A DNA stretch of 26,488 nt, taken from the IMG/VR virus record IMGVR_UViG_3300021960_000435, positions 1-26,488 of that record. One strand, 5' to 3'. Of this stretch, positions 1 through 24,705 are shown in pieces (within the stretch, counting starts at the first letter, position 1; every line of letters begins with the position of its first letter). The notes under the pieces were generated by a model, which was not told the origin of the DNA, made no database searches, and was given only the letters and a program-made list of their open reading frames with translations. Both the position numbers and the translations under genes were made by a program. The stretch is from a virus.

Positions 1-461
1 CTACCTAGTATTACTAAATCAAAGTTTAAATATTCTGCACTAGCACTTTCGCCTATGCCTATGTCAAATATGTTACCGTCACCCTGTATGCTTGAAAGCA
101 TATCAGCATAGTCGGCACTACCTGTTGATCCTGCATCAATGTCAAAGATGTTACCACTACCTAAGTTGTAAAAATCTAAAACACTGGAGCCACTACCGTC
201 CAAAACTATAGATCCAAAAAAGTCATTGTTATCACCGTCTTGTATGAGGTCTAGTATTATACTACCACCACTTAGTAATAAGTCAGAACTTTCTGTTGCG
301 TCTCCCGACACAGTATTACCTGTACCAGCCTGTAGGATGGTTAAAACTAAGTTATCACCGTCTTGATCTAGTAAAACTTCGTTGTCATCTGCAAGTATTG
401 GATAGGACATCAGTCCGATTAAAGCGAAGACACTAACCGCTAAGTTTTTAAATATCTTCAT
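1..461 (-). CDS. Curlin-repeat (CsgA/B-like) secreted protein, partial
   Basis: The ATG at 461-459 opens a frame with no stop down to base 1, giving about 153 visible residues; the C-terminus is outside the window. Residues 1-24 look like a Sec signal peptide (basic start, hydrophobic core, PILA before DDNE). The mature part carries degenerate repeats of curlin type with a Q-x-G-x-x-N spacing: LDQDGDN, LQAGTGN, LIQDGDNN, LGSGN and IQGDGN. In curli, such repeats stack into an amyloid beta-solenoid exported through CsgG and CsgF, which are encoded just upstream. The start overlaps the end of csgG by 14 nt, so the two are translationally coupled. It may be an amyloid subunit or nucleator made by the infected cell. 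Amyloid behaviour is inferred from repeat spacing only. Confidence 0.72.
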   Translation of the reverse strand, partial: MKIFKNLAVSVFALIGLMSYPILADDNEVLLDQDGDNLVLTILQAGTGNTVSGDATESSDLLLSGGSIILDLIQDGDNNDFFGSIVLDGSGSSVLDFYNLGSGNIFDIDAGSTGSADYADMLSSIQGDGNIFDIGIGESASAEYLNFDLVILG

Positions 462-1482
462 TGTTATTCTCCATTAATGGTTTATTATTCTTTAGAAGAA
501 CCTTCTTCCAAAGTGGTAATGAGTTTGGGTCTTTCGAAAATTGTTTTTTATCCTCCTCGTCAGGAAGAACACCAGATTCTTTGAGACTCATCCAGTATGC
601 CTGTTCTTGTTCTGCAACCTGGTTGTCCCAATCTTCTGGATACACTATCTTCCAGTATCCTCTTTCATCACCTTGCTTAATAAGTTCTAACACCGCGGCT
701 TCGATAGCCGACCTAACCGCAAATGTTACACTTTCGTTTTGTGTCATTCCGCTCTCAAGTTCGAGGAGTTTAGTATCCATATCTAAAAATCTAAATACAT
801 CTCCTGCTTGACCTGAACTTAAAACGGTCTTCTGTGTTTGGACATTGAGTATTACTTCGCCTGTGAGTGTGCTTACAGCACGAAGTGATATTACTATACT
901 GTCCCTTCGATATTGGTTTGTTGTACCAATACCCAAATATCTTGCCCCTGTACCTCCTGTTTCAATATTAGTGTCGTATCCTATAACACCACCTTCTAAT
1001 ATCATTCCAGCAAATAACATTGGCTGTAGTTCTTGAAACTCATCTAATCCTGCCTGTTTGGCTGACTCTGAACGAGTTGCTCTTACTATTTGCCTTTCTC
1101 TAACTAAGTTATCTAAACCTAGTCCTCTTTCAACTACTCTAAACCAAGTTCCTTTTGGATTCTCTCCTGAACCTGCCGCCTTTAGAGCGTCTACTAATAA
1201 ACTTTTTGCGTCTTGCGTAACTGCTGTACTAAAACTAGCAACTCCGTCTTGACTTTTTCTTTGTCCTGTTCCATCACCAAATGAGTATATGGCAACCACA
1301 GGCATTGTTTCTGCCGGTGGCAGATATCTTAATTTTCTATATGTGGGTAATTCTACTTTTTGTGGTTCTTCTACACATTCAAGAAAGTCAGTTTGGCACA
1401 TCTCATCGCCCGGAATAGCGATACTGGCACAACCACTTAAATATAAAACACCTATTAGTGCTATTAAAATATTTTTAGTCAA
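448..1482 (-). CDS. csgG: CsgG-family curli secretion lipoprotein
   Basis: CsgG forms the outer-membrane pore that exports curli subunits. The 344-aa product has a short signal peptide and a lipobox L15-S16-G17-C18, so it is a likely lipoprotein. The CsgG core follows closely: LPPAE...VAIYSFGDGTGQ, FSTAVTQDA, RVVERGLGLDNLVRERQIVR, GGVIGYDTN, TGGTGARYLGIG, and GDVFRFLD near the end. It is longer than E. coli CsgG (about 277 aa) because of a C-terminal extension of about 60 residues after RGYWKIV that is charged and Asn-rich at the end. The start is TTG at 1482, one base after the csgF stop (TAA at 1486-1484). Order is csgF-csgG-curlin in a late operon. Family assignment is strong; the role in a phage (export, lysis pore or surface change) is open. 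Confidence 0.96.
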   Translation of the reverse strand: MTKNILIALIGVLYLSGCASIAIPGDEMCQTDFLECVEEPQKVELPTYRKLRYLPPAETMPVVAIYSFGDGTGQRKSQDGVASFSTAVTQDAKSLLVDALKAAGSGENPKGTWFRVVERGLGLDNLVRERQIVRATRSESAKQAGLDEFQELQPMLFAGMILEGGVIGYDTNIETGGTGARYLGIGTTNQYRRDSIVISLRAVSTLTGEVILNVQTQKTVLSSGQAGDVFRFLDMDTKLLELESGMTQNESVTFAVRSAIEAAVLELIKQGDERGYWKIVYPEDWDNQVAEQEQAYWMSLKESGVLPDEEDKKQFSKDPNSLPLWKKVLLKNNKPLMENNNEDI

Positions 1483-1483
1483 C

Positions 1484-1975
1484 TTATCCGCCTGCTATTT
1501 GTCCTATACCAATTGGTATTTCTATTGTTGTTATTGTTCCATCTGGATCAACGATAGTAAGTTGGATTACTTCTAATCCATCTGCGTTTGTAACTATTTG
1601 ATATGAAACTGTATTGCCTTCGATATCAAATGCTCCACTGGTTGAACCTGTGCAACTTACTACTGTTGCTGGGTCGCAAAACATACTGTCTACGAGGCCC
1701 TTAGAAATTTGTGAATAAATTCTACTCTCCAAATTTCTAATAAATTTGTTTATTGTGCTGTTATCATCTTCTCTTTCAGCCGCCTTTAATGCCGCTTCTA
1801 TATCTGATTTAATTTTATCACGTCTTGATTTTTCTTGGTTCTCAATAGTTAAATAATGAGCACCTGTTCCTTGTCCACTAAAACTAGGACTTTTAAATTT
1901 AAATTTAATTTCATCTGCAGATAAACTAAAACTAAAAATTGATAATAAGAATGCTATTGGTAATACTAATTTCAT
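1484..1975 (-). CDS. csgF: CsgF-family curli assembly factor
   Basis: CsgF binds the mouth of the CsgG pore and couples secretion to nucleation of curli fibres. The 163-aa product has a clear signal peptide (hydrophobic residues 4-18, cleavage likely after SLSA). The mature N-terminus reads DEIKFKFKSPSFSG, matching the F-x-F-x-N/S-P-x-F-x-G start by which CsgF inserts into CsgG. A helical charged middle (about residues 45-95) and a beta-rich C-terminal part (VSYQIVTNADGLEVIQLTIVDPDG) follow. Two cysteines, in FCDP and SCTG, could form a disulfide. Its ATG overlaps the upstream small membrane gene by 4 nt, and csgG starts one base after its stop, so the pair is co-translated. Confidence 0.93.
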   Translation of the reverse strand: MKLVLPIAFLLSIFSFSLSADEIKFKFKSPSFSGQGTGAHYLTIENQEKSRRDKIKSDIEAALKAAEREDDNSTINKFIRNLESRIYSQISKGLVDSMFCDPATVVSCTGSTSGAFDIEGNTVSYQIVTNADGLEVIQLTIVDPDGTITTIEIPIGIGQIAGG

Positions 1976-2265
1976 TTTTTCTTCCCTTCCTGTTTCTCTA
2001 GGGCCTCTTTTTGTTTGGCTTGTTCGAGAATTTTTTGTGTTGCTTTGTATTCTAAAACAACATTAACTTTTTGTTGTAGTCGTATCATATCTTGATCTAA
2101 CATACGAGTTTTGTCTATGACTCTGATTAATGCAAAATGCATTTCTTCTAAAGCAGGGTCGATGTGTTCACCGATGAAATTCCAAATGAAATATATAAAG
2201 TAACCAAGTCCTACAGTCATTACAACTGGAAAACCAAATTCAGAAATTAATTGACCTACATCCAT
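1972..2265 (-). CDS. Small one-TM protein with coiled-coil tail (holin-like?)
   Basis: This 97-aa protein has one hydrophobic segment at about residues 12-32 (FPVVMTVGLGYFIYFIWNFI). A charged helical region with coiled-coil periodicity follows (about 38-75), then a strongly basic end (EGKKK). It resembles its upstream neighbour in layout and sequence: both begin with a L-I-x-E-x-G-x-P turn before the membrane helix and share the M-x-x-x-M/D-x-I-x-L-x-V coil further on. Size and topology fit small phage holins of the BhlA/UviB type, but I see no diagnostic motif. It overlaps the stop of the upstream gene by 1 nt and the start of csgF by 4 nt, so it belongs to the curli cassette. It could be a holin, an inner-membrane partner of CsgG, or something unrelated. 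Confidence 0.6.
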   Translation of the reverse strand: MDVGQLISEFGFPVVMTVGLGYFIYFIWNFIGEHIDPALEEMHFALIRVIDKTRMLDQDMIRLQQKVNVVLEYKATQKILEQAKQKEALEKQEGKKK

Positions 2266-2561
2266 TAATCTCTCCTAGCATCAACTTTGCCGTCTTCGAC
2301 AAAATTTTCTGCTCTTGCAATACGCTCGATGTCTGGTCTTAATTCCAAAGCACTTGAAACTAACAAATCAATTTTCATCATCTCATTACTCATTGTACTT
2401 GCTCGTGCTTCTAAACTTTTACAAAAAATTGTTAAAGTCTTAACTTGGTCAACGATACCTTCCATTATTTGTTTAATTACTAAAAAAATAAAAAATCCCA
2501 TCGCTAAACTACCGGCAATGGGGGCACCTACCTCGGCTATCAATTTGAAGATATCTTCCAT
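2265..2561 (-). CDS. Small one-TM protein, paralogue of the next gene
   Basis: This 98-aa protein has a membrane helix at about residues 14-34 (IAGSLAMGFFIFLVIKQIM), then a soluble coiled-coil-like part rich in Met, Ser and Glu, and a polar end (VDARRD). It aligns without large gaps to the 97-aa protein just downstream, suggesting tandem duplication or a holin/antiholin type of pair. It is the first gene of the cassette: the late promoter box (2602-2609) lies about 41 nt before its ATG. The ATG is preceded by a purine-rich AGAGTAAT stretch that gives only a weak ribosome binding site. Function is not recognised; a membrane role is supported only by the hydrophobic segment. Confidence 0.6.
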   Translation of the reverse strand: MEDIFKLIAEVGAPIAGSLAMGFFIFLVIKQIMEGIVDQVKTLTIFCKSLEARASTMSNEMMKIDLLVSSALELRPDIERIARAENFVEDGKVDARRD

Positions 2562-2601
2562 ATTACTCTCGTTTGTGTTTTTCTGCTACTCTCTACATGT
2601 G

Positions 2602-2609
2602 TATTTATC
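2602..2609 (-). promoter_or_regulatory. Late promoter box GATAAATA for the curli cassette
   Basis: The minus strand reads GATAAATAC, one base from the T4 late consensus TATAAATA. It sits between the terminator of the upstream fibre gene and the first gene of the cassette, 41 nt before that start. The same exact octamer precedes the other late operons of this window. Confidence 0.75.
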
Positions 2610-2620
2610 AAAATTTAGTC

Positions 2621-2650
2621 AAAAAGAAAGGGCCTAAAAAGACCCTTTCT
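2621..2650 (-). terminator. Intrinsic terminator after the second fibre gene
   Basis: On the minus strand AGAAAGGG (2650-2643) pairs with CCCTTTCT (2632-2625) across a 10-nt loop and is followed by a T run. It starts 18 nt after the fibre stop codon. The next late promoter lies immediately beyond it, so fibre and curli transcripts are separate units. Confidence 0.8.
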
Positions 2651-6502: not shown

Positions 6503-9500
6503 TTAGACTAAGATTTCAATTACACCAGGAGCGGCTTCTGTTTTAGTTTCCAATGCTCTACCAATAATTTGTAATGGACTTAGCGATTTAGGATCTGCGG
6601 CAACCATACCGTGTCCTTCTAAGTCACTTGCAATAATTATATCACCTTTCTTAACAACACCGCCTACTTTACATGGCACTCTGCCGCGTAATGCTATAGA
6701 CACTACATGCTCACTATCCAGTTCTGCATTCATTAAGTATGCTGGATTTGTACTTACTACACCAACTACTGCATGACTTCCTGCTTCATTTACTGCTGTT
6801 ACTTCTGCTTTACCGCCTATTACAACAACTGTACCTGGTTCATAACTAGCATCTGCTTTATAGTTTTCTGCCAAGTCAGCATATTGAGCCGAGGTTGCTG
6901 TACCACTAAATGTGTTTGCGTACATTGTACCAAATTTAACACTACTTGAACCAATATTATATGTACCACTTGGTCCTGTTGCTACAATGTTTCTTGTGGT
7001 TATGTCACCACTGAATGTACCACCTGGGAATGGATTACCCGATGGTCCTGTTGGTCCAGTTGCACCAGTTGGGCCTGTACCACCAGTTGCACCTTTTTGT
7101 CCTTTATCGCCTTGTAAACCTTGTGGACCAGTTGGACCAGTTCCACCTTGAGCACCTAATTCTCCTTTTTGTCCTTTATCGCCTTGGCCACCTTGGGCAC
7201 CTTGAGCACCTTGTAAACCTTGAGGTCCTACTTCACCTTTCTGTCCTTTTGCACCTGTTGGACCAGTAGCACCCTGAGGTCCTGTTGCACCAGTTGGGCC
7301 TGTGGCTCCAGTTGCACCTTGAGGTCCTGTTGCTCCTTGTGTTCCTTGTGTTCCTTGTGGTCCAAGATCACCTTTTTGTCCTTTATCTCCAGTAGCACCG
7401 GTTGGTCCTTGAGCACCTACTTCACCTTTCTGTCCTTTTGCACCTTGTGGGCCTGTGGCTCCAGTTGGTCCAGTAGCACCTTGAGGTCCTGTTGCTCCTT
7501 GAGGTCCTTGAGCACCTGTATCACCTTTTTGTCCTTTATCACCTGTTGGTCCAGTTGGGCCGCTGTCTGCAGGTACCCAGTCATAGTCTGAACCATTCCA
7601 ACTCAATACTTCAGATGAGTTTGCTGAACCAGTGTTAAGATGTGTATCTACTCTGGCATTGGTATAATATAAATTTGTACCTTCACTTAAATCTGATGTG
7701 CTTCTAGTACTTAATGCACCTGCTTGTAATTTACCACTTGCATCAAATAATACTGTTGAACCAGGGCCTACAATACTGTTATTAAATGTTGCACTTGCAC
7801 TAAATGTTTTAGCACCGCCAACTGTTTGTGACCCACTAGTTCTAACAACTGTGCTGTCTACTGCAATATCGTCTGCATTTACTGTAATACCGTCACCGCT
7901 ACCAACGTTTAATGTAACAGCACCACTTGTACCACCACCTGTTAAACCGTTTCCAGCACCTACGCTCTCAATGTCGCCTGCATCGTTTGTGAAACTGATT
8001 TCACCTGTTGAACTATTATAACTTAAATCGCCACTTACACTGATAGCCGCTCTGGCTCTTGCATCTGTGTAATATAAATTTGTTGAACCTTCTGATACGT
8101 CATCAGTGTCGCCGCTCCAACTAATAACACCTGTGCCGTTATTATACGATATTGGCGCACTAGCACTGATTAATGCTCTAGTTGTTGCATCACTTGGTGC
8201 GTCAATTGTTAGTTGAGATCCAGTGATAGAAGTTGTTATGTTAGTACCGCCTGCTATTGTAAAGGTATCTGTGTTTGTGGTTGCTGTATAAGATGTAGAA
8301 TCTGCATTTATTGTTTTGATAATATTCTGACTGCTACCTAGATCTGAATTTGTAACAGTGATAACGTTTGCTGATTGTGATACAGTAACACCAGTACCTC
8401 CTGCAATTTTTCTAAAATTATGATATGTTGTTGCACCTGCTGTTCTAGAACCACCGTATACTGATTCTCCACTTGCCGCTACTGATTCAATTGAGCCTGA
8501 TATGCCTCTGTTTGTTAATGGATATTCTGTGCCATTTATAATACCGTATATTTCGCTATCTCTAGCAAAAATTACACTATCAGGTGTGTCGCCATCACCA
8601 AATACATTTGTACTTGTTTGCGAATCATCGTCTGCACCTGTGGCATATTGAGTTGCATTAGTAATGTCTTTTAATAATAAATGATTAACACCTATACCAC
8701 CGTTTTCAGTGGTTGTTAATAGTGTTGCATTTGTAGATGCATTAGCATCATTTAATTGATCTCTAACTACAAATCCTGAATTAGATAATGTGTTGCCTTT
8801 TGCAATATCAATAAAAACAATCTCTTCTGCTTCAACTCTTAATATTCCTGAGCCGGCTCTAATAGAAGTTTTAAAATTTGTTCCTGTATCAAAGAATATA
8901 TCACCGCCTGTGTCAAACTCAATATCATTTTCTTTGTATATACTGCTACCGATTGTTAATGTACCGCCGCTGTTTATAACAGGACTTACACTGGAATCAA
9001 ATGTTAATTGTGATTCTACTGTTTGTGCGACACCTGTTCTTCTAAGTACGGTTGAATCTACTTGAATACTATCTGCATTAACTGTGATACCACCACCGCC
9101 TGCTCCAACAATATCAAATGTTCTATCTGAATTTAAATCACCGCCACCTGTTAGACCGTTACCTGCTGTTAAATTTCTTGTTAGTGGTGCCTTTGTGGCA
9201 ATTGAATTTGTTAATGTTGTATTAAGTGCGGCATCGTTACCTAATGCTGTTGCAATTTCATTTAATGTATCTAGTGTTGCTGGTGCACCACCTTGTAAGT
9301 TTGCAATAGCCGTTTCTACATAGGCTGTTGTGGCTACTTTTGTACTATTATCACTTGCACTTTGAGTAGTTGCAGTTGTACTTGCGGTACCTGTTAAATC
9401 CACAGTACCTGTAAATGTTTTTGCGCCACCTATAGTTTGAATGCCGACAGTTCTAACAACTGTGGTGTCAACAGCAATATCACCTGCGGTGTAGTCAATA

Positions 9501-10699
9501 CCATCACCGCCAGTTAATTCTGCATCTATTCTTGTACCAACTGCACTATTAAAATCTGTAATTTGTGAACTTGGTATTGCTATGCTTACATCTGCCGCCG
9601 TTGTTAATTGTCCTTGTGCGTTCACAGTATAAGTCGGTATTGCTGTAGCACTACCATAACTTCCTGCACTAACGGCTGTGTTAGTGATGCTTACTGTACC
9701 AGAACTTGTAATAGGATTCGGTGACGTTGTTATGCCTGTGCCACCTGTTACACTTACTAGTGTACCTGGTGCAAAATTAGTAACGTATGCTGTTGTGGCT
9801 ACTTTTGTACTATTATCTGCACTTGCTAACGTTGGTGCTGTTAATTCGGTACTAAAATCTGTTGCTTGAGTAATTTGTGAAGGTAAACTAAATGTACCAT
9901 TACTGCTATTATAATCTATTTCACCTGATGTACCGGCAAATAATGCTCTTACTTCTGTGTCAAAATCTGTAACTTGCGTATGCGGTATTGCTATTGCTGT
10001 TGTTGATGCACTTGTTATTCTACCTTGCTGATCAACTGTGAATGTGCCTACACCTGTTGCACTTCCGTATGTATTAGGAGTAACTGCTGTGTTGTCTAAA
10101 TTAAAAACAAGTGTGTTAGCAACATCGTTATAAACTGCTGTTATGCCTGTACCACCGGAAGCCATTGCGCCAACTCTGTCGTCGACTGCTTCTGAAAAAT
10201 CTGTTATCTGAGAGGCCGGTATTGCTATGTTTACATCAGCGGCCGCTGTTAATTGTCCTTGTGCATTTACAGTGAATGTTGGTATTGCTGTAGCACTACC
10301 ATAACTTGCGGCTGTTACCGCTGTATTTGTAATGTTGTATACGCCAGCACTATATGTTAAGCCTGTACTTGCTGAAAAATGTGCTTGTACTTCTGCGGCA
10401 CTTGGACCGGTGTATGTTAATGTATTACCAGAGTATGCAACACTTCCGTCGCCACCAGCATCTACAACATTTAATACTCCTGTGATAGGTGCTGACGTTG
10501 TTAATGCAGTACCGTCCCAAGTTATTGTTGCATTTGCAGTTGTTTGACTTAATTGTAAGGTTGCTGTTGCACCAGTTCTATCATAGTTGACAATTATGCT
10601 GTCATCTGCAACTCTGAGTTGATCTGCTCTTTCACTGATTGATTGGGCATTAAATATTATATTACCCGGTGATCTAAATATACCTTTTTTGTCTGCCAT
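6503..10699 (-). CDS. Giant collagen-like tail fibre protein
   Basis: This 1398-aa fibre is related to the next gene downstream. Its N-terminus ([20 protein letters not shown]) differs from the Mtd-like start of the other fibre, so it may attach elsewhere on the virion. Residues 60-1040 are beta repeats. Three or more copies of a [20 protein letters not shown] unit followed by IAIPxSQITDF occur in the first third, then [12 protein letters not shown] units, then [12 protein letters not shown]-type units. A collagen-like GXY tract spans about 1047-1217. The last 180 residues share a nearly identical block with the other fibre ([15 protein letters not shown] through SAQYADLAE) and then diverge moderately. 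The late promoter is at 10731-10738, 32 nt upstream. Likely function is host recognition or virion decoration. Confidence 0.85.
7050..7560 (-). repeat. Collagen-type GXY coding repeat, fibre 1
   Basis: About 55 Gly-X-Y triplets, longer than the tract in the other fibre. It uses the same units ([24 protein letters not shown]). In collagen-like phage proteins such tracts form trimeric stalks. The 9-nt DNA periodicity makes length variation between relatives likely. Confidence 0.85.
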
Positions 10700-10730
10700 T
10701 AATTACTCCAATTGCAACATTGCTTTAACA

Positions 10731-10738
10731 TATTTATC
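10731..10738 (-). promoter_or_regulatory. Late promoter box GATAAATA for fibre 1
   Basis: The minus strand reads GATAAATAT 32 nt before the ATG of the 1398-aa fibre, just beyond the gp23 terminator. Confidence 0.75.
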
Positions 10739-10763
10739 AGATTATGGCATTTTTTTAGGATAC

Positions 10764-10792
10764 AAAAAAAAGCACCTTCCGAAGAAGGTGCT
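10764..10792 (-). terminator. Intrinsic terminator with UUCG loop after gene 23
   Basis: On the minus strand AGCACCTTC (10792-10784) pairs perfectly with GAAGGTGCT (10779-10771) around a TTCG tetraloop closed by C-G, followed by eight T. It lies 26 nt after the gp23 stop and is the strongest terminator in the window. It would end the head-gene transcript before the fibre promoter. Confidence 0.93.
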
Positions 10793-10817
10793 TAATTCGT
10801 TTAAGTAAAACTAATAC

Positions 10818-11963
10818 TTACTTGAATGAGACGTTTGAAAGTCCAATTTCACCTAAGTAGTCAGCCGCGTTACCCAATGAACTTGCTGTGTTAGTAAGTT
10901 CTAAGTAACCGTATCTTGTCATAAATGACACTACTGGTTCAAATGTGCTTGGATCCATAACTGGACCTGTGCTCATTAATGGAATGTAAGGACAGTAGAA
11001 TGCTGGAGCATCTGTTTCAGATGAACCTTTATATCCTACTAGTACTGCTGTTCCATCAGCCGCATAGTTGTCAACAAATACTTTAACAGTACCGTTTAAT
11101 GTACCAACAAACTTAGAGTTTGTAGGAGCATCAAAAGGACCTTCTGTACTTCTAACAAATGTTGAAGTTGTTGCAGATTGTAGTATTGTTAAAGCCTGTG
11201 GACTTACAACAACATAGTTACCTGCGCCTCTTCTTGTTCTAGCGGCAATCAAGTTTGCAACTCTGTTGATAAGAATTGCCAAGATTGCGTGTCTTTCACC
11301 GATATATGTTTGAGTACCTGTGATTCCTGAGTTGAAGTCTAAAGTGTCAACTGTAGGAGCAAGTGCTCTTAATTTTGCTAACATCTCTTGGTCGATTTCA
11401 ACTGCAATTTCTTGTGCTAATGCCTGCATAATTTCTGCTTCAACATCTACACCGTGCATTGCGTTGGCGTCTTGAGCACTTTCAAAAGTCCATCTTGCTG
11501 ATAGACGTCTTGTTTTTGCTTCGACTGTTTGCTTGAGGATTTGAATAGACATTTTGCTACCCGCTGTTCCTTCACTTGCCGCAGTTGCATCAGGTGTTCC
11601 TGAATATGCTGTTGCTAATGCGAAAGGACTTAAAGCCTCTTGTCCTGCTGTTACTGAGTCTTTAGACTCTGCGTATCTTACCCTTAATGTGTGGATTTGT
11701 CCTACTGGTCCACTCATTGGTTGCACACCAAGTAATTCGTTGGCGATCAAAGAAGGCATAACCCTTCTAATCAATGGTAGCATAACTTTGTTAAGTGATG
11801 CAACGTTTCCTGCCATTGTTGACCCTGCTGTCGCTGATTCTTGTAATTGAGTTTTTGCGTTTTCTAAAATTACGTCCATTGTAGACTTTTTAGATCCCTG
11901 TAAACCCTCAAGAAGAGCGTCCTTGGTTGCGGACCAATTTGATTCAAATAATGCTTCTGCCAT
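10818..11963 (-). CDS. 23: Major capsid protein gp23-like
   Basis: This is the shell protein of the T4-like head (HK97 fold). The 381-aa product has the family landmarks: LIRRVMPSLIANELLGVQPMSGPVG followed by IHTLRVRY, then SARWTFESAQDANAMHGVD and AEIMQALAQEIAVEIDQEML, and near the end GPVMDPSTFEPVVSFMTRYG. It is clearly shorter than T4 gp23 (521 aa) and the cyanophage versions, so it likely lacks insertion-domain sequence. An LLEG motif at residues 18-21 fits the gp21 cleavage rule (L/I-x-E before A/G) but was not confirmed. The ATG has an AGGAG site. It follows gp22 and is followed by a strong terminator, as expected for the most abundant product of the operon. Confidence 0.94.
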   Translation of the reverse strand: MAEALFESNWSATKDALLEGLQGSKKSTMDVILENAKTQLQESATAGSTMAGNVASLNKVMLPLIRRVMPSLIANELLGVQPMSGPVGQIHTLRVRYAESKDSVTAGQEALSPFALATAYSGTPDATAASEGTAGSKMSIQILKQTVEAKTRRLSARWTFESAQDANAMHGVDVEAEIMQALAQEIAVEIDQEMLAKLRALAPTVDTLDFNSGITGTQTYIGERHAILAILINRVANLIAARTRRGAGNYVVVSPQALTILQSATTSTFVRSTEGPFDAPTNSKFVGTLNGTVKVFVDNYAADGTAVLVGYKGSSETDAPAFYCPYIPLMSTGPVMDPSTFEPVVSFMTRYGYLELTNTASSLGNAADYLGEIGLSNVSFK

Positions 11964-11972
11964 TATAATCTC

Positions 11973-13088
11973 CTAATATTTAAGTCCGGCTAGTTTTCTG
12001 ATTTCGTCAAGTTCGACTACGTCAACTTCATTGGTGGAGCCGGTTTGTCCGTCCAACGATCTATTACCAGTGTGTTCTGTCTTCACTGATTCATTAATAA
12101 CTTCTTTCTTAGTTCTTACAGAACCTTCTTCGTTCATAACACTTGGAAGGTACTTGTTAAATGATTCTTCAAGTTTCTCTGTTTTTACTGATTCTAGAAG
12201 TTCTGTCATTAATTCTTTTTTGCTACTACTTAAAGGTGCAATTAAGTCACTAATAACATTGTTTCTGTTGTATCTATCTTCTGCTATACGCAATTTAGAT
12301 TCAACTAATTTCTTTTGCTCTGAACTATTTTCTGCTTTAGCCTGTGCTTCTGAGATTTTAGATTTTAATCCAGTAATCTTAGATTTAAGTTTTCTGACTT
12401 CTGTATTTTCATTTAAATACGAAGTAGCATACTCACCAGCCATTGCTTCAAATATTCTTCTGCCAAATTCATTTTCTCGAGCCTTAGTAATATCTTCTTT
12501 AAATTGCGATACTTCGCTTTTTAAAGCAGATGAAATAGTTGATTCAACTTTTTCTGCGGCTCTTCTAATAAATTGTTTTTTAGCATCCGCAAGTTGCTCT
12601 CTTCCTTCGCGAACTAACTGAACTTTTTTCTCTGCTAGTTCTCGCTTATCTGAGTGGAACTCACGAATTTCATCAGCAACTGCTTCAAGTACAAAGTTTT
12701 CAAGTTTAGCAAAGTTATCACTTTGTGCATTTCTATCTTCTTTTAATTCCTTGATTTCGTTGGCTAATGTTTCTGAAACGAATTTATTTAACAGTTCGGT
12801 ATGTGAACCAACTGCTTTTTTATAATTAACTCTTTCAGCAATAGTTGCCTTCTTATCTTCTGCAAGTTCTTTCAATTCTTCTTCTAAATTTTGAGTAATA
12901 AACTTGTCCATTGCTTCTACAACTTGACTTTTGTCATGTTCGAATCTCTGTGCAAATTCTTCTCTCAATTCAGCAGTAATTTCGTCTCTTGCTTCAGCAA
13001 GGCGTGTTTCCCATGCTTCTTGTATATTGATTCTTGTCTCTTCAGACAAGTCACCATTTTCAAGAAGTTCTACGAATGTATCCGCCAT
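11973..13088 (-). CDS. 22: Prohead scaffold core protein gp22-like
   Basis: gp22 forms the inner scaffold of the prohead and is destroyed by gp21 during maturation. I set the start at the ATG at 13088 (MADTFVELLENGDLSEETR), which has AGGAG seven bases upstream and gives 371 aa. An in-frame upstream ATG at 13133 would add 15 residues overlapping gene 21 and has no such site. The protein is almost entirely helical and charged, with long coiled-coil stretches (about residues 20-290) rich in E, K and A and few aromatic residues. The C-terminal segment (VDVVELDEIRKLAGLKY) is a short helix, as in other gp22 proteins that bind the capsid protein. Position between 21 and 23 supports the call more than sequence identity does. 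Confidence 0.88.
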   Translation of the reverse strand: MADTFVELLENGDLSEETRINIQEAWETRLAEARDEITAELREEFAQRFEHDKSQVVEAMDKFITQNLEEELKELAEDKKATIAERVNYKKAVGSHTELLNKFVSETLANEIKELKEDRNAQSDNFAKLENFVLEAVADEIREFHSDKRELAEKKVQLVREGREQLADAKKQFIRRAAEKVESTISSALKSEVSQFKEDITKARENEFGRRIFEAMAGEYATSYLNENTEVRKLKSKITGLKSKISEAQAKAENSSEQKKLVESKLRIAEDRYNRNNVISDLIAPLSSSKKELMTELLESVKTEKLEESFNKYLPSVMNEEGSVRTKKEVINESVKTEHTGNRSLDGQTGSTNEVDVVELDEIRKLAGLKY

Positions 13089-13098
13089 GTGCTTTCTC

Positions 13099-13728
13099 CT
13101 ATTTGAGTTCCAATTCACGTATGAAATTTTCAATCATACGCGATAGGTGTTTTTGTGCGTTTCTGTCACTTTGTTTTATTTCTCTAGCGGCTTCAAATAT
13201 CTGAGCGCCGCCTCTCATATTAAATAAACTTTCATAAATGGCTTTAGGGTAGGCATCTGGGGCACTTGGTTGTGCTACGATGTCAACAGTTACTATATCA
13301 AAATCGCTTACCCTACCGCTTTCATTTACGTTGCCACTGCCTCGACTACTAACGCCTAATTTGGCGCCACCTTTAAGTAATGCTTCGGCAATCTTACCCA
13401 TTGGAGTATCCAATATTTTAAGTTTACCGAATCCATCTGCTCCGTCGACCCGCATGTCTGTTATCATGTGGCTAACTCTATCTAAATTTATTTGTAATTC
13501 TGTTGGATGATCTAATTCACCAAGAACAGTTTCACCAGATTTAATTCTACCACCAATTGATTCTACAGCCGTCTGTATTTCTTCTTTGGGATATACTCTT
13601 CCATTCTGGTTTTTGACTTCGCCTTGTATAAACAGTCCGCTCATATGCATAATTTTACCATCATTAGATGATTCAACTACAATATTTGCTTTATCTGGAC
13701 TATAATACTCGAATAACTGTCTTGACAT
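13099..13728 (-). CDS. 21: Prohead maturation protease gp21-like
   Basis: gp21 is the serine protease that cleaves scaffold and capsid proteins in the T4 prohead. At 209 aa it nearly equals T4 gp21. The start is compact (GLFIQGEVKNQNGRVYPKE), with the expected catalytic His in ELDHP (H74), the serine in GVSSRG (S127 or S128) and an acidic residue in TVDIVAQPSAPDAY (D149 region). NESGRVSDFDIVTVDIV is typical of the family. It sits 13 nt after the acidic core protein and ends 10 nt before the gp22 ATG. Translation signals are good (AAGGAGACATAATG). Confidence 0.94.
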   Translation of the reverse strand: MSRQLFEYYSPDKANIVVESSNDGKIMHMSGLFIQGEVKNQNGRVYPKEEIQTAVESIGGRIKSGETVLGELDHPTELQINLDRVSHMITDMRVDGADGFGKLKILDTPMGKIAEALLKGGAKLGVSSRGSGNVNESGRVSDFDIVTVDIVAQPSAPDAYPKAIYESLFNMRGGAQIFEAAREIKQSDRNAQKHLSRMIENFIRELELK

Positions 13729-13741
13729 TATGTCTCCTTAA

Positions 13742-14590
13742 TTACTTAACTTTTCCTGCTATAGGACTCTCTGATTTCTCAGCATTTACTTTTGCTGGGG
13801 AAACAGATGCTGGTTTTTCGCCAATGTTATCGCTTACTGGATTGTCTTTGGCTGAATCACCTTTTTTACCTTCTGCACCGTCTTTACCAAAAAGTTCTTT
13901 TTCGTCTGTTCCGAAATTTTCTTTCTTTGGAAACTTAGGTGATGCATCGTGGTCTGCACTTGAGTCATTTTTAGCAGATTGATTTTTACTGAAGTTAGTT
14001 GCTTCTTCTAGTTCTTCTTCAACTTCTTCATCTAAGTCAATTTCTTCTTCAAAAGATTCCATTTCCATATCGTCTGCTAATTCGTCCTCAGCATCTTCAA
14101 TTTCTTCTTCGCCTTCGTCATCTGACATTAACTTTTCGAATTCTGCTTTTAGTTCATCTAGTTGTGCTTCTAAATCGTCAACTCTGTCTTCGACTTCTTC
14201 TTCAGACTCTTCTTCACCATCAATTTCCATTTCTGGTTCCATTTCGTCTTCGATTTCGTCTTCTTCTTCGTTAACACCTGATTCATCTGCATGAACGTCT
14301 GCTTCTACTTCATCGTAGAAGTCTTCACTTGGTGAACCTGCAACTGTTTCTTCAACAGCCTCTTCTTCAGACTCTTCAGCCTCTTCGACTGCTTCGTCTT
14401 CAGATTCAGATTCTTCTTCAACAACTTCGTTGTCGATTGCTTCTTCTAGAGCATCTTTATCTAAGAGATCTTCATAAATCTCTCTGGACTTCTCTACCAT
14501 AAAACTGTGTAACAGGTCTTTGGCCTGAGCATCGTCCTCTGCTAAAAGATGTTCCAGTACTTGTTCTAAAACACTTTTATTATCTGACAT
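13742..14590 (-). CDS. Acidic prohead core protein (gp67/gp68-like position)
   Basis: This 282-aa protein occupies the place of T4 genes 67 and 68, just before gene 21. A helical N-terminus (VLEQVLEHLLAEDDAQAK, then SREIYEDLLDKDALEEAI) resembles the D-x-x-A-x-x-L-F layout of gp67. It is followed by about 130 residues that are mostly E and D, with a coiled-coil stretch VDDLEAQLDELKAEFEKLM near the middle. The last 85 residues are Lys/Ser/Pro-rich and basic (KFPKKENFGTDEK). T4 gp67 is only 80 aa but also ends in an acidic tract. An internal core role, packing scaffold and then cleaved by gp21, is inferred from position and composition. The ribosome binding site is AAAGGAG. Confidence 0.68.
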   Translation of the reverse strand: MSDNKSVLEQVLEHLLAEDDAQAKDLLHSFMVEKSREIYEDLLDKDALEEAIDNEVVEEESESEDEAVEEAEESEEEAVEETVAGSPSEDFYDEVEADVHADESGVNEEEDEIEDEMEPEMEIDGEEESEEEVEDRVDDLEAQLDELKAEFEKLMSDDEGEEEIEDAEDELADDMEMESFEEEIDLDEEVEEELEEATNFSKNQSAKNDSSADHDASPKFPKKENFGTDEKELFGKDGAEGKKGDSAKDNPVSDNIGEKPASVSPAKVNAEKSESPIAGKVK

Positions 14591-20667: not shown

Positions 20668-21510
20668 ATGACACAAAACACAAGTCCATTAGCAGATTTC
20701 TATAGAAATCCCAAGTTATATGTTTCATTGCCCAGCGGTACTGATTATTATAGTGCAGATGTAGTTGATATGCCTGAAGTAGGCGAACTGCCTGTGTATC
20801 CTATGACAGCAAAAGATGATTTGCTAACAAAAAACCCAGATGCATTATTAAATGGCGATGCAGTAATTAAGTTAGTAAAAAGTTGTGTGCCCAATGTAAA
20901 AAAACCTGCAGAACTATTAGCACCGGACATGGAAACAATTCTTATTGCTATACGTCAAGCAAGTAGCAAAGAAAAATACATGGAAATTGTGAGAACCTGT
21001 CCAGAATGCCAAGCAGAAAACAATTACAGTTTAGATTTAAGTTTGGTAATTCAAAGTGCAGAAGAAGTTATTGCACGACAGGACGTTAATCTATCAAACG
21101 GGTTAATAGCAAATATTTCACCAACAAACTATATTCACACAGTTCAAAGTGCTAAAACCATTATAGAACAAAACAGAAACTTTAGAAACGTTGATGTCAA
21201 TGACAGCGACGAGCAATTAAGGTCACTGGGACAAGCAATGGAACGTTTAAGTGAAATGAACTATCGTGTAATATTGGAATCTATCAATCATATATCAATA
21301 CCAGACGGCGAAACAGTTTCCGACCCTGTAATGATTTCAGAATTCTTAGAAAATGTTGATAAAGAAATTGGTATGGAATTAAATGATGCAGTAAGCAAAA
21401 TAAACAATGGCGGTGTTGTAAAAGAAGCACCAATGTTGTGTAATGAATGCAATCACGAATATACCACATCCATAAACTATGATCCAGTCGGTTTTTTCTT
21501 GAATTCCTAG
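20668..21510 (+). CDS. 26: gp26-family tail/baseplate protein, copy A (short form of frameshift pair)
   Basis: The zero-frame product has 280 aa. It matches the T4 baseplate family that includes gp26: PKLYVSLPSG near residue 16, ELPVYPMTAKDDLLTKNPDALLNG at 40-63 (read as two segments) and KSCVPNV at 71-77. Cys pairs C111/C114 (CPEC) and C258/C261 (CNEC) could bind one metal ion. It ends VGFFLNS-stop, and the FF codons are part of a slippery heptamer (21492-21498), so a fraction of ribosomes should make a 370-aa fusion. In lambda-type tails, such short and long forms are chaperones of the tape-measure protein. The tape-measure-like gene is divergent next door. GGAG stands before the ATG. It is about 2.3 kb from its homologue on the other strand. 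Confidence 0.88.
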   Translation: MTQNTSPLADFYRNPKLYVSLPSGTDYYSADVVDMPEVGELPVYPMTAKDDLLTKNPDALLNGDAVIKLVKSCVPNVKKPAELLAPDMETILIAIRQASSKEKYMEIVRTCPECQAENNYSLDLSLVIQSAEEVIARQDVNLSNGLIANISPTNYIHTVQSAKTIIEQNRNFRNVDVNDSDEQLRSLGQAMERLSEMNYRVILESINHISIPDGETVSDPVMISEFLENVDKEIGMELNDAVSKINNGGVVKEAPMLCNECNHEYTTSINYDPVGFFLNS

Positions 21511-23177: not shown

Positions 23178-23600
23178 TTATAAGGTCTTTAAGGCCTCTT
23201 TGAGGATTTTTGAACCACCTACTCTGACGTTGATAATTCCGTTATAATAGTCGTCAGTTTCAAGTACTCGCCTCTCGAATTGCTCTCGGGCTTCTATGTA
23301 ACTTGCTACTCCTCGGCTAGGGCAATAGTACAATATTTCTCTACGAAATTTGTCTTCTCCTAGCTCTAATACATCTGCATTAAGATGATCACTACTACCC
23401 CAATAAGTACGCCAGTCACTTTCTTTGTAACCACGTCTTTTATTCTTTCTGCCTTTTAATGGGGGTTTGGTTGTTTTGAACTTGGCAAGTTTTTTGCCAA
23501 CATATTTCATATTGTTAGTTAGGTTTGTGATCAGATATACAAATGCTTCACAATCTTCCGGAAGTGTTGTAACTTCTGTGTCTTTATAATACCAACTCAT
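23178..23600 (-). CDS. GIY-YIG-type endonuclease-like protein
   Basis: At 140 aa it has EAFVYLITNLTNNMKYVGKKL at residues 18-38 (read with its flanks), which fits the GIY...YIG strand-turn-strand (FVYLI ... KYVGKK). A basic loop (KGRKNKRRGYKESDWRTYWG), EDKFRREILYYCP with a possible catalytic Arg, and SYIEAREQFERRVLETDDYYNG carrying the likely metal-binding Glu follow. Similar short proteins are common in T4-like phages and are often called homing or Seg-like endonucleases. Its ATG shares one base with the stop of the chaperone B extension, so it is the last gene of that operon. It may act as a mobile nuclease or in DNA processing. It sits between two duplicated tail modules, a setting where homing could favour rearrangement. 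Confidence 0.68.
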   Translation of the reverse strand: MSWYYKDTEVTTLPEDCEAFVYLITNLTNNMKYVGKKLAKFKTTKPPLKGRKNKRRGYKESDWRTYWGSSDHLNADVLELGEDKFRREILYYCPSRGVASYIEAREQFERRVLETDDYYNGIINVRVGGSKILKEALKTL

Positions 23601-23833
23601 TATAAGTCTTCAGTGGCAGGCTTTCCTGCTTTTGCTTTAAACAAGTCATTAATAATTTTGGCAGTTAATTGTCTTTGCGGTAAACTCATACTCCAGACGT
23701 CGCTCAATGTCAAACTGCCTTGTGCATAGATAACCATTTCAGTTACTTCTTTATTAATGGCTTCGGTGTCTTCATTGAGCTTCCTAAGGTAAGCCACTAC
23801 CTCCTCAGGCTCTGCACGAGCTAGGAAGCCGTG
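23600..23833 (-). CDS. -1 frame extension of chaperone B
   Basis: These 77 codons are read after slipping at 23839-23833: HGFLARAEPEEVVAYLRKLN and onward to AKAGKPATEDL-stop. They align throughout with the extension of copy A (FL-x-RAEPE, YL-x-x-L, ED, VIY-x-x-GS). A GTG at 23797 preceded by AGGAGG could in principle start a 65-aa protein, but the spacing to the GTG is only 2 nt. That start would also remove the part most conserved with copy A, which has no start codon there. Frameshift expression is the better reading. Confidence 0.82.
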   Translation of the reverse strand, partial: HGFLARAEPEEVVAYLRKLNEDTEAINKEVTEMVIYAQGSLTLSDVWSMSLPQRQLTAKIINDLFKAKAGKPATEDL

Positions 23834-23839
23834 AAAAAA
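23779..23839 (-). promoter_or_regulatory. Programmed -1 frameshift site, copy B
   Basis: On the minus strand TTTTTTC (23839-23833) is in phase, with zero-frame codons AAT TTT TTC. GCTTCCTA (23829-23822), 3 nt downstream, pairs perfectly with TAGGAAGC (23786-23779) over a 35-nt loop. The zero-frame TAG (23823-23821) begins in the 5' arm. Stem position matches copy A although the paired bases are partly different, so both arms changed together. Confidence 0.87.
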
Positions 23840-24705
23840 TTTACAGTATTAAAGTTTACAGCACTTTCAAATGTAAACTCTTCTCCTTCTGGTAACTTTT
23901 CACTACAAGGTTCGCATGTTAATTGCATACGTTTTTGGATACCTTTATCGCCCATATCAGTAATAAACCTCTCTAGTTCTTTACCTATAGAGGAATCACA
24001 GTTTTCTAAAAACTCCTGAATATGTTCTTTATCTTTAACTACAACTGGTTCGCTTTCTCCTTCAGAAGGAGGCATAGTAATAGTGTTTACACAATCTACT
24101 AAAATATCAAAGTTTAAATTTGCAAGTTCTATAAAATTGGTATTAAATGCTTTAATTTTTTCTAATTCATCCTCTATATTTGCAATTGATTGTAAACTTC
24201 TTTCGCTTCTAAAGTTGGCAACACCTGCCTTTACAGCAGTTTCATAACTAAAAGGAACCATAGAAATTAATAAACCTGAGTCTGTAGTGAACTCGTAAGT
24301 ATCATCAAGTGTATCCATGTTAGATAAAACTGCTTCTGTGCTAATAATAGCAGATGCATTTTCTGTACATTGTGGACATGGTGCTCCTACATCTAATTCA
24401 TCACCAAATGTAGCACCTTGTATAGCAACTAATAATGCATCAACATCATTAGCAACTAGCCTTCTGGGTGCTAAAATATTAGGTATGCAACTGGCTATGA
24501 CTTGAGCTACTGCTTCACCATTAAGCAAAGCATCAGGATTTTTCATCATGATCTCATCTTTAGCCGTCATGGGGAAAACTGGTAGTTCACCTGTGCTGGG
24601 TAAATCTATTATAGTTTCGTCATAAAATTTACCTTGACTTGGTAAACTAGTATATAATTTTGGCGTCCTAAAGTGACCTACTAGCGGGTTTTGTGTATTG
24701 GACAT
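23821..24705 (-). CDS. 26: gp26-family tail/baseplate protein, copy B (short form of frameshift pair)
   Basis: The zero-frame product has 294 aa and is a clear paralogue of copy A: PKLYTSLPSQGKFYDETIID, ELPVFPMTAKDEIMMKNPDA, LLNGEAV, ASCIPN, and Cys pairs C110/C113 (CPQC) and C264/C267 (CEPC). The middle has diverged, and the copy is closer to the usual gp26 pattern (LPSxGKFY). It ends VNFFTAS-stop at a slippery site, giving a predicted 368-aa fusion, almost the same length as the 370-aa fusion of copy A. It is divergent to the second tape-measure-like gene, 94 nt away. The GIY-YIG gene follows in the operon. A role as tail-assembly chaperone or baseplate hub part is inferred from family and context. 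Confidence 0.88.
   Translation of the reverse strand: MSNTQNPLVGHFRTPKLYTSLPSQGKFYDETIIDLPSTGELPVFPMTAKDEIMMKNPDALLNGEAVAQVIASCIPNILAPRRLVANDVDALLVAIQGATFGDELDVGAPCPQCTENASAIISTEAVLSNMDTLDDTYEFTTDSGLLISMVPFSYETAVKAGVANFRSERSLQSIANIEDELEKIKAFNTNFIELANLNFDILVDCVNTITMPPSEGESEPVVVKDKEHIQEFLENCDSSIGKELERFITDMGDKGIQKRMQLTCEPCSEKLPEGEEFTFESAVNFNTVNFFTAS

Follow-up and report, generated by a model that had tools for sequence, protein, structure and literature searches.

Why would a marine virus carry genes of a bacterial curli secretion system, and what would their products do in the infected cell? The question is raised by the IMG/VR virus record IMGVR_UViG_3300021960_000435, the whole of which (26,488 bases, hereafter the window) was analysed. 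The window carries T4-type capsid, portal and prohead protease genes (phrog_138, phrog_213, phrog_207) together with collagen-like fibre genes and a T4-type late promoter, and is, judged by this content, a fragment of a T4-like marine myophage. At its start lies a minus-strand cassette of homologues of csgF and csgG, a curlin-repeat gene and two genes for small membrane proteins, named here smA and smB. We propose, with a probability of about 0.62, that this cassette is a late exporter of surface adhesive fibres, equipped with a phage-specific membrane pair. Its features are as follows.

2625..2650, minus strand: intrinsic terminator with an 11-bp stem and a T tail, dividing the upstream tail-fibre gene from the cassette
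2602..2609, minus strand: T4-type late promoter motif GATAAATA, 40 bases ahead of the smA start codon
2265..2561, minus strand: smA, 98-residue membrane protein with an N-terminal hydrophobic segment and no histidine (phrog_18771)
1972..2265, minus strand: smB, 97-residue paralogue of smA (phrog_18771) with the motif RMLDxDxIRL, predicted as a short N-terminal helix followed by a long helix
1484..1975, minus strand: csgF homologue, 163 residues, with a signal peptide and an N-terminal SPSFSG motif (PF10614, E 8.3e-11)
448..1482, minus strand: csgG homologue, 344 residues, with a TTG start and a lipoprotein-like N-terminus (PF03783, E 2.3e-46)
3..461, minus strand: curlin-repeat gene, of which the N-terminal 153 residues are visible before the record ends inside it (PF07012, E 7e-4)

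All five genes named by an earlier, sequence-only reading of this DNA are thus present, and its description of one overlapping late operon was right: smA and smB overlap by 1 base, smB and csgF by 4 and csgG and the curlin gene by 14, a single base separates csgF from csgG, and the late promoter stands upstream of smA. The CsgG protein matches solved chains of its E. coli namesake (best E 3.5e-46), which places it in the family of outer-membrane curli secretion channels. CsgF, a mark of type VIII (curli) secretion, gives a PF10614 match above the cut-off, and its sequence search against solved chains returned no match. A relative (L002) encodes a full curlin protein of 263 residues, identical to that of the window over the visible part. 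Second curlin genes exceed the Pfam cut-off in the relative L024 and in the pelagiphage HTVC008M (KC465899), while that of L002 is unmatched. The curlin protein of another relative (L013) was modelled as a solenoid of repeated strands, a predicted beta-solenoid with a mean confidence (pLDDT) of 73, and in structure it comes closest to "Curlin associated" phage proteins (E 8e-8).

The window record stops inside the cassette, and relatives were used for the remainder (32 loci at 69-97% CsgG identity and the best 80 of at least 586 more distant ones). Their gene order is smA-smB-csgF-csgG-curlin-fecR-curlin-(variable genes)-CHASE2 adenylate cyclase, so that fecR, the second curlin gene and the cyclase are placed past the point where the window ends. 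Counted over all fetched loci, not deduplicated, csgF precedes csgG wherever this could be tested (273 of 273), and csgG is followed by a curlin gene in 247 of 255 testable cases, the eight misses including loci whose curlin gene lies beyond the distance filter. Among loci with 7.5 kb downstream, fecR is found in 73/73, at least two curlin genes in 65/73 and the cyclase in 72/73. Seven relatives (L084-L087, L089-L091) have the altered order smB-csgF-smA-csgG, in which csgF splits the pair. The variable genes that follow the second curlin gene and precede the cyclase (L002:10823-11146 and 11312-11785; L022:14443-14733) include a DUF5658-like protein and a small lipoprotein-like coil protein, the latter conceivably of envelope or spanin type.

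The claim of a late promoter holds. Indeed, GATAAATA occurs nine times in the window for 1.73 expected, a number reached in none of 100 shuffles, and the copies stand mostly ahead of gene starts. Of 97 related loci, 85 keep an NATAAATA motif in the 130 bp ahead of smA, where 0.046 would be expected in a stretch of that length, and in three further loci it falls inside an over-extended predicted start of the smA open reading frame (ORF). HTVC008M is annotated with a late sigma factor and a late promoter transcription factor. Upstream, the terminator (one found for 0.1 expected) folds with a minimum free energy of -17.7 kcal/mol (z -3.63). Late expression of the cassette is, on these sequence signals, well supported.

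The late promoter also counts in favour of another explanation, in which CsgG and CsgF have taken on the timing of lysis as a pore akin to a pinholin or secretin, with the curlin proteins as bystanders. This role was proposed for phage Melnitz in PMC9004378 (papers are cited here by PMC number) and is the published suggestion to which the sequence-only reading referred; the paper states that csgA and csgB are missing and that Melnitz has no other lysin-like genes. However, the Melnitz record itself (MZ577097) annotates two curlin-repeat genes in the cassette, so that the lysis proposal loses its premise of missing substrates. Peptidoglycan hydrolases are moreover encoded elsewhere in both genomes: a glucosaminidase and a GH108 domain outside the cassette in HTVC008M, and in Melnitz GH108 together with Hydrolase_2 at 42349-42723 (E 7e-23), a second hydrolase candidate. 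As an outer-membrane protein of lipoprotein type, CsgG also sits in a different membrane from holins, which act in the inner one. The curli operon is also reported as lacking from Fonsimyophages in PMC7029224. On the other side, HTVC008M has no annotated holin or spanin, and the complete separate lysis set that the sequence-only reading thought would weaken the lysis model was found by half, as hydrolases in HTVC008M and Melnitz with no holin or spanin identified. Searches for glucosaminidase, Hydrolase_2 and GH108 had no match in the closest long relative of the window (G001, 250 kb). A search with LysM as a lysis marker was empty. With a curlin gene following csgG so regularly and hydrolases lying elsewhere, lysis is the weakest of the roles first offered for the cassette, and we regard it as very unlikely.

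The window locus belongs to a cassette type that has already been published. PMC9599517 (Wittmers 2022) describes a pelagiphage module in which csgF is preceded by one or two "histidine kinase" genes and which also has FecR, curlin genes and an adenylate cyclase. The type VIII secretion module of HTVC008M (6900-13807: two small genes, csgF, csgG, curlin, fecR, curlin, cyclase) has the same gene set and order as the cassettes of the window's relatives; the window csgG is 44% identical to its counterpart there, and the window cassette differs in sitting behind collagen-like fibre genes. The sequence-only reading was correct on the linked curlin-like substrate and partly mistaken in calling it and the membrane pair less familiar, since PMC9599517 reports curlin genes in such cassettes and places its "histidine kinase" genes where the pair lies. 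From this position, and from the paper calling these genes short, we infer that they are smA and smB. The proteobacterial curli operon shares csgF, csgG and curlin-repeat substrates with the phage cassette, which adds smA/smB, the FecR protein and the CHASE2 cyclase and in which CsgE was not found (10 records). None of sm, fecR or the CHASE2 cyclase was detected within roughly 9 kb of five alphaproteobacterial curli regions, four of them with csgF and csgG, by phage-built profiles that may miss distant relatives. A csgG-like gene also occurs in a short "phage" record (OR851715.1, Salmonella phage S.Kent 1-2-1, 1499 bases), which is probably a bacterial fragment.

What, then, are smA and smB? 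The two are paralogues about 20% identical, with median lengths of 93 and 97.5 residues, respectively; smB is modelled as a long helix (pLDDT 83, predicted template-modelling score 0.39). Searched at E <= 1, 30 smA/smB members matched 22 Pfam families between them, with neither HisKA nor HATPase in the set, and no conserved phospho-acceptor histidine was found, the highest share of histidine in any column being 0.36 in 233 smA and 0.17 in 252 smB sequences. Where the pelagiphage module of PMC9599517 is labelled with histidine kinases, there would thus be short membrane proteins having neither a kinase domain nor a conserved histidine, a correction that appears to be new.

The distribution of the pair is that of a phage gene set. 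Among 50,697 phage records, smA and smB match only six HTVC008M/Melnitz records, all csgG-positive. A candidate role as an ordinary bacterial curli component was rejected: the smB profile matches one of 385 alphaproteobacterial genomes, a Pelagibacter metagenome-assembled genome (MAG) with phage contigs that was used as centre. In the genome collection, smB matches at 18 loci (L119-L136), all beside genes of phages or of the cassette; their contigs had been assigned to MAGs from scattered phyla (Flavobacteriaceae, Pirellulales, Thaumarchaeota and others), and we read them as phage contigs inside MAGs. Searches biased toward cassette-bearing relatives gave 342 distinct smA-smB pairs (L001, L116-L118, L373-L391 and L470-L485 being left out of the count), of which 228 accompany csgF/csgG, 28 accompany type I secretion genes and 68 cassette fragments. 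The remaining 18 have no recognised neighbour, five of them with 2.5 kb on both sides. Conversely, in a table of 115 loci including the window and some duplicates (e.g. L034/L036), 107 have 1.2 kb upstream of csgG, and of these 98 carry two sm genes and nine carry none. On this evidence the pair is phage-borne and separable from the csg genes.

Five of the nine sm-less loci (L099, L105-L108) have a short Fis-like ORF, divergent and upstream of csgF, which matches HTH_8 in L099, the one copy searched for this family; of the other four (L093, L097, L098 and L109), the two inspected, L093 and L097, showed none. The divergent Fis/HTH_8-like ORFs, all on the minus strand, are:

L099:7063-7335, minus strand: Fis/HTH_8-like ORF
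L105:1706-1963, minus strand: Fis/HTH_8-like ORF
L106:1036-1293, minus strand: Fis/HTH_8-like ORF
L107:7065-7307, minus strand: Fis/HTH_8-like ORF
L108:7069-7311, minus strand: Fis/HTH_8-like ORF

The shape of smA and smB, a short N-terminal hydrophobic segment followed by a long charged helix, is shared with YvrJ-type small holin-like proteins, and presumably also with those of BhlA type. The pair might accordingly be a phage holin or antiholin pair parked in the operon. In favour of this idea, smB weakly resembles a PHROG holin family (E 0.0017 in L245 and 0.0061 in L299, over 15-35 residues only), 5 of 30 members weakly match YvrJ (best E 0.013), and five pairs are free of any cassette gene over 2.5 kb on both sides. 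Against it stand the association of 256 of the 342 distinct pairs with csg or type I genes, and of 68 more with fragments, in a cassette-biased sample, the absence of the pair from nine cassette loci and its restriction to the six HTVC008M/Melnitz phage records. We therefore consider a holin pair unlikely; our best guess is that smA/smB adjust the inner membrane, or else the cyclase, while late export proceeds. As separate observations, one of the five cassette-free pairs (L283) has odd G+C-rich flanks, and L245:6192-7525 holds smA-smB without csg genes, next to a phrog_1158 gene; an endolysin (phrog_894, E 5.5e-47) lies on the opposite strand some 3 kb away, possibly giving the pair a lysis context.

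The companions of the curli genes also occur with an unrelated exporter. In 21 distinct cyclase loci of uncultivated phages, an outer-membrane efflux protein (PF02321, E 4.5e-48 in L299), an ATP-binding cassette (ABC) transporter-like protein and HlyD (PF13437, E 5.9e-17 in L428) stand ahead of the CHASE2 cyclase, as in type I secretion; 18 of the 21 include smA and smB, and nine a FecR-domain protein of more than 600 residues. The ABC-like component is a short membrane protein that matches a PHROG ABC transporter in L299 (E 2.6e-11) and has no Pfam match in L428; an ATPase domain was not recognised in these two copies. Cadherin and/or RTX repeats were present in three of three large FecR proteins examined. 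Example loci with a large FecR/cadherin or RTX protein are L399, L405, L428, L436, L439 and L464. In one contig (L414) the curli and type I systems are adjacent, with the FecR protein on the curli side, and CsgG was found in one of 12 whole type I records searched (that of L443). A phrog_138 search in 12 type I contigs had no match, a result of little weight as the control was likewise silent. Ten large proteins of one such contig (G410) comprise two tail families, one phage carbamoyltransferase, five PHROGs of unknown function and two unmatched proteins.

Two alphaproteobacterial loci (L481, L482) have the order ABC-HlyD-CHASE2 cyclase-efflux protein-FecR/RTX giant, without sm genes and, in L481, with a full-length ABC protein. 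Such type I RTX/cadherin adhesin operons, bacterial or of phages (L399, L428, L439, L464), thus share the FecR domain and the CHASE2 cyclase with the curli cassette, whereas smA/smB are common to the phage versions only and exporter and substrate are unrelated to curli. That FecR, the CHASE2 cyclase, smA and smB should also accompany a type I adhesin exporter in other phages appears to be new; no paper on a phage type I cassette of this kind surfaced in the open-licence PMC literature, whose coverage is incomplete. In Burkholderia, FecR and a CHASE2 kinase form an operon in which insertion in the regulator abolishes biofilm (PMC5192318).

Because smA/smB, FecR and the cyclase are common to an adhesin exporter, surface adhesion is favoured over cell bursting, and because of this, of the linked substrate and of CsgF, surface display is the best reading of the cassette. 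A phage-encoded type VIII secretion system would be turned on together with the late genes; in the outer membrane of the host, CsgG together with CsgF would export Sec-delivered curlin-like beta-solenoid proteins, which may form adhesive fibres on the cell surface and so keep new hosts or progeny near. The FecR-domain protein and the CHASE2 cyclase of the relatives would act as an envelope-sensing pair, and smA/smB as phage-specific inner-membrane helpers. Secretion of a curlin-like protein is the step that we hold to be quite probable; that adhesion or aggregation is its purpose has, in our estimate, an even chance.

The same secretion might instead coat the cell so that rival phages no longer adsorb (superinfection exclusion), as PMC9599517 proposes. 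Late timing comes late for exclusion, and adhesion agrees better with the cadherin/RTX adhesin-like product exported in the type I parallel. Phages are nevertheless known to modify surfaces against their rivals, and we regard such a coat as possible but doubtful.

Several results weigh against adhesive fibre export. The window curlin match scores 19.9 bits, under the curated Pfam cut-off of 20.7, for a truncated gene, and a Foldseek search of the curlin model against the PDB returned zero solved structures at E <= 0.001. The residue before STAV in the CsgG loop, which in E. coli CsgG needs to be aromatic, is L in 83, F in 56, I in 20 and M in one of the 160 distinct CsgGs that the pattern matched among 219. 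The nine csg loci without smA/smB imply that the pair is not essential to the system, and the late motif stands in only one of 12 type I cassette rows, duplicates included. Melnitz cultures did not clump according to Buchholz et al. (PMC9004378). Finally, CsgE (PF10627) is in none of the 10 records searched, the window among them being a fragment, with a positive E. coli control; PMC9599517 likewise gives CsgE as missing in pelagiphages. Absence of this gate would suit an open outer-membrane CsgG channel importing nutrients or cofactors, as suggested in PMC7029224 and PMC9599517; such a channel leaves the universal csgF and near-universal curlin genes unexplained, and we judge it extremely improbable.

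Elsewhere in the window, two genes on opposite strands match phrog_150, a baseplate hub family (20668-21510, plus strand; 23821-24705, minus strand), and 23178-23600 (minus strand) matches both phrog_447, whose NAD synthetase label looks doubtful, and homing endonuclease families. The first 12 kb of the window had zero matches in a DNA-level search of the phage collection, and neither Rfam families nor tRNAs turned up in scans of the window.

Taken beyond the curli cassette, the type I parallel leads us to suggest, tentatively and at slightly less than even odds, that ocean phages carry an interchangeable surface-display module in which FecR, the CHASE2 cyclase and smA/smB are combined with either a curli or a type I RTX/cadherin exporter, making infected cells sticky. 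The lysis model of the curli pore, for its part, loses one premise. As smA/smB are common to both routes and were not found in the bacterial genomes examined, they offer a concrete handle on the function of the module. If the suggestion is true, they would be a new phage membrane protein family that licenses or tunes envelope export during infection, and some widespread marine phages would lend their planktonic, streamlined hosts an adhesion that these lack, by two unrelated export routes, so that late infection would reshape cell-cell contact in the open ocean.

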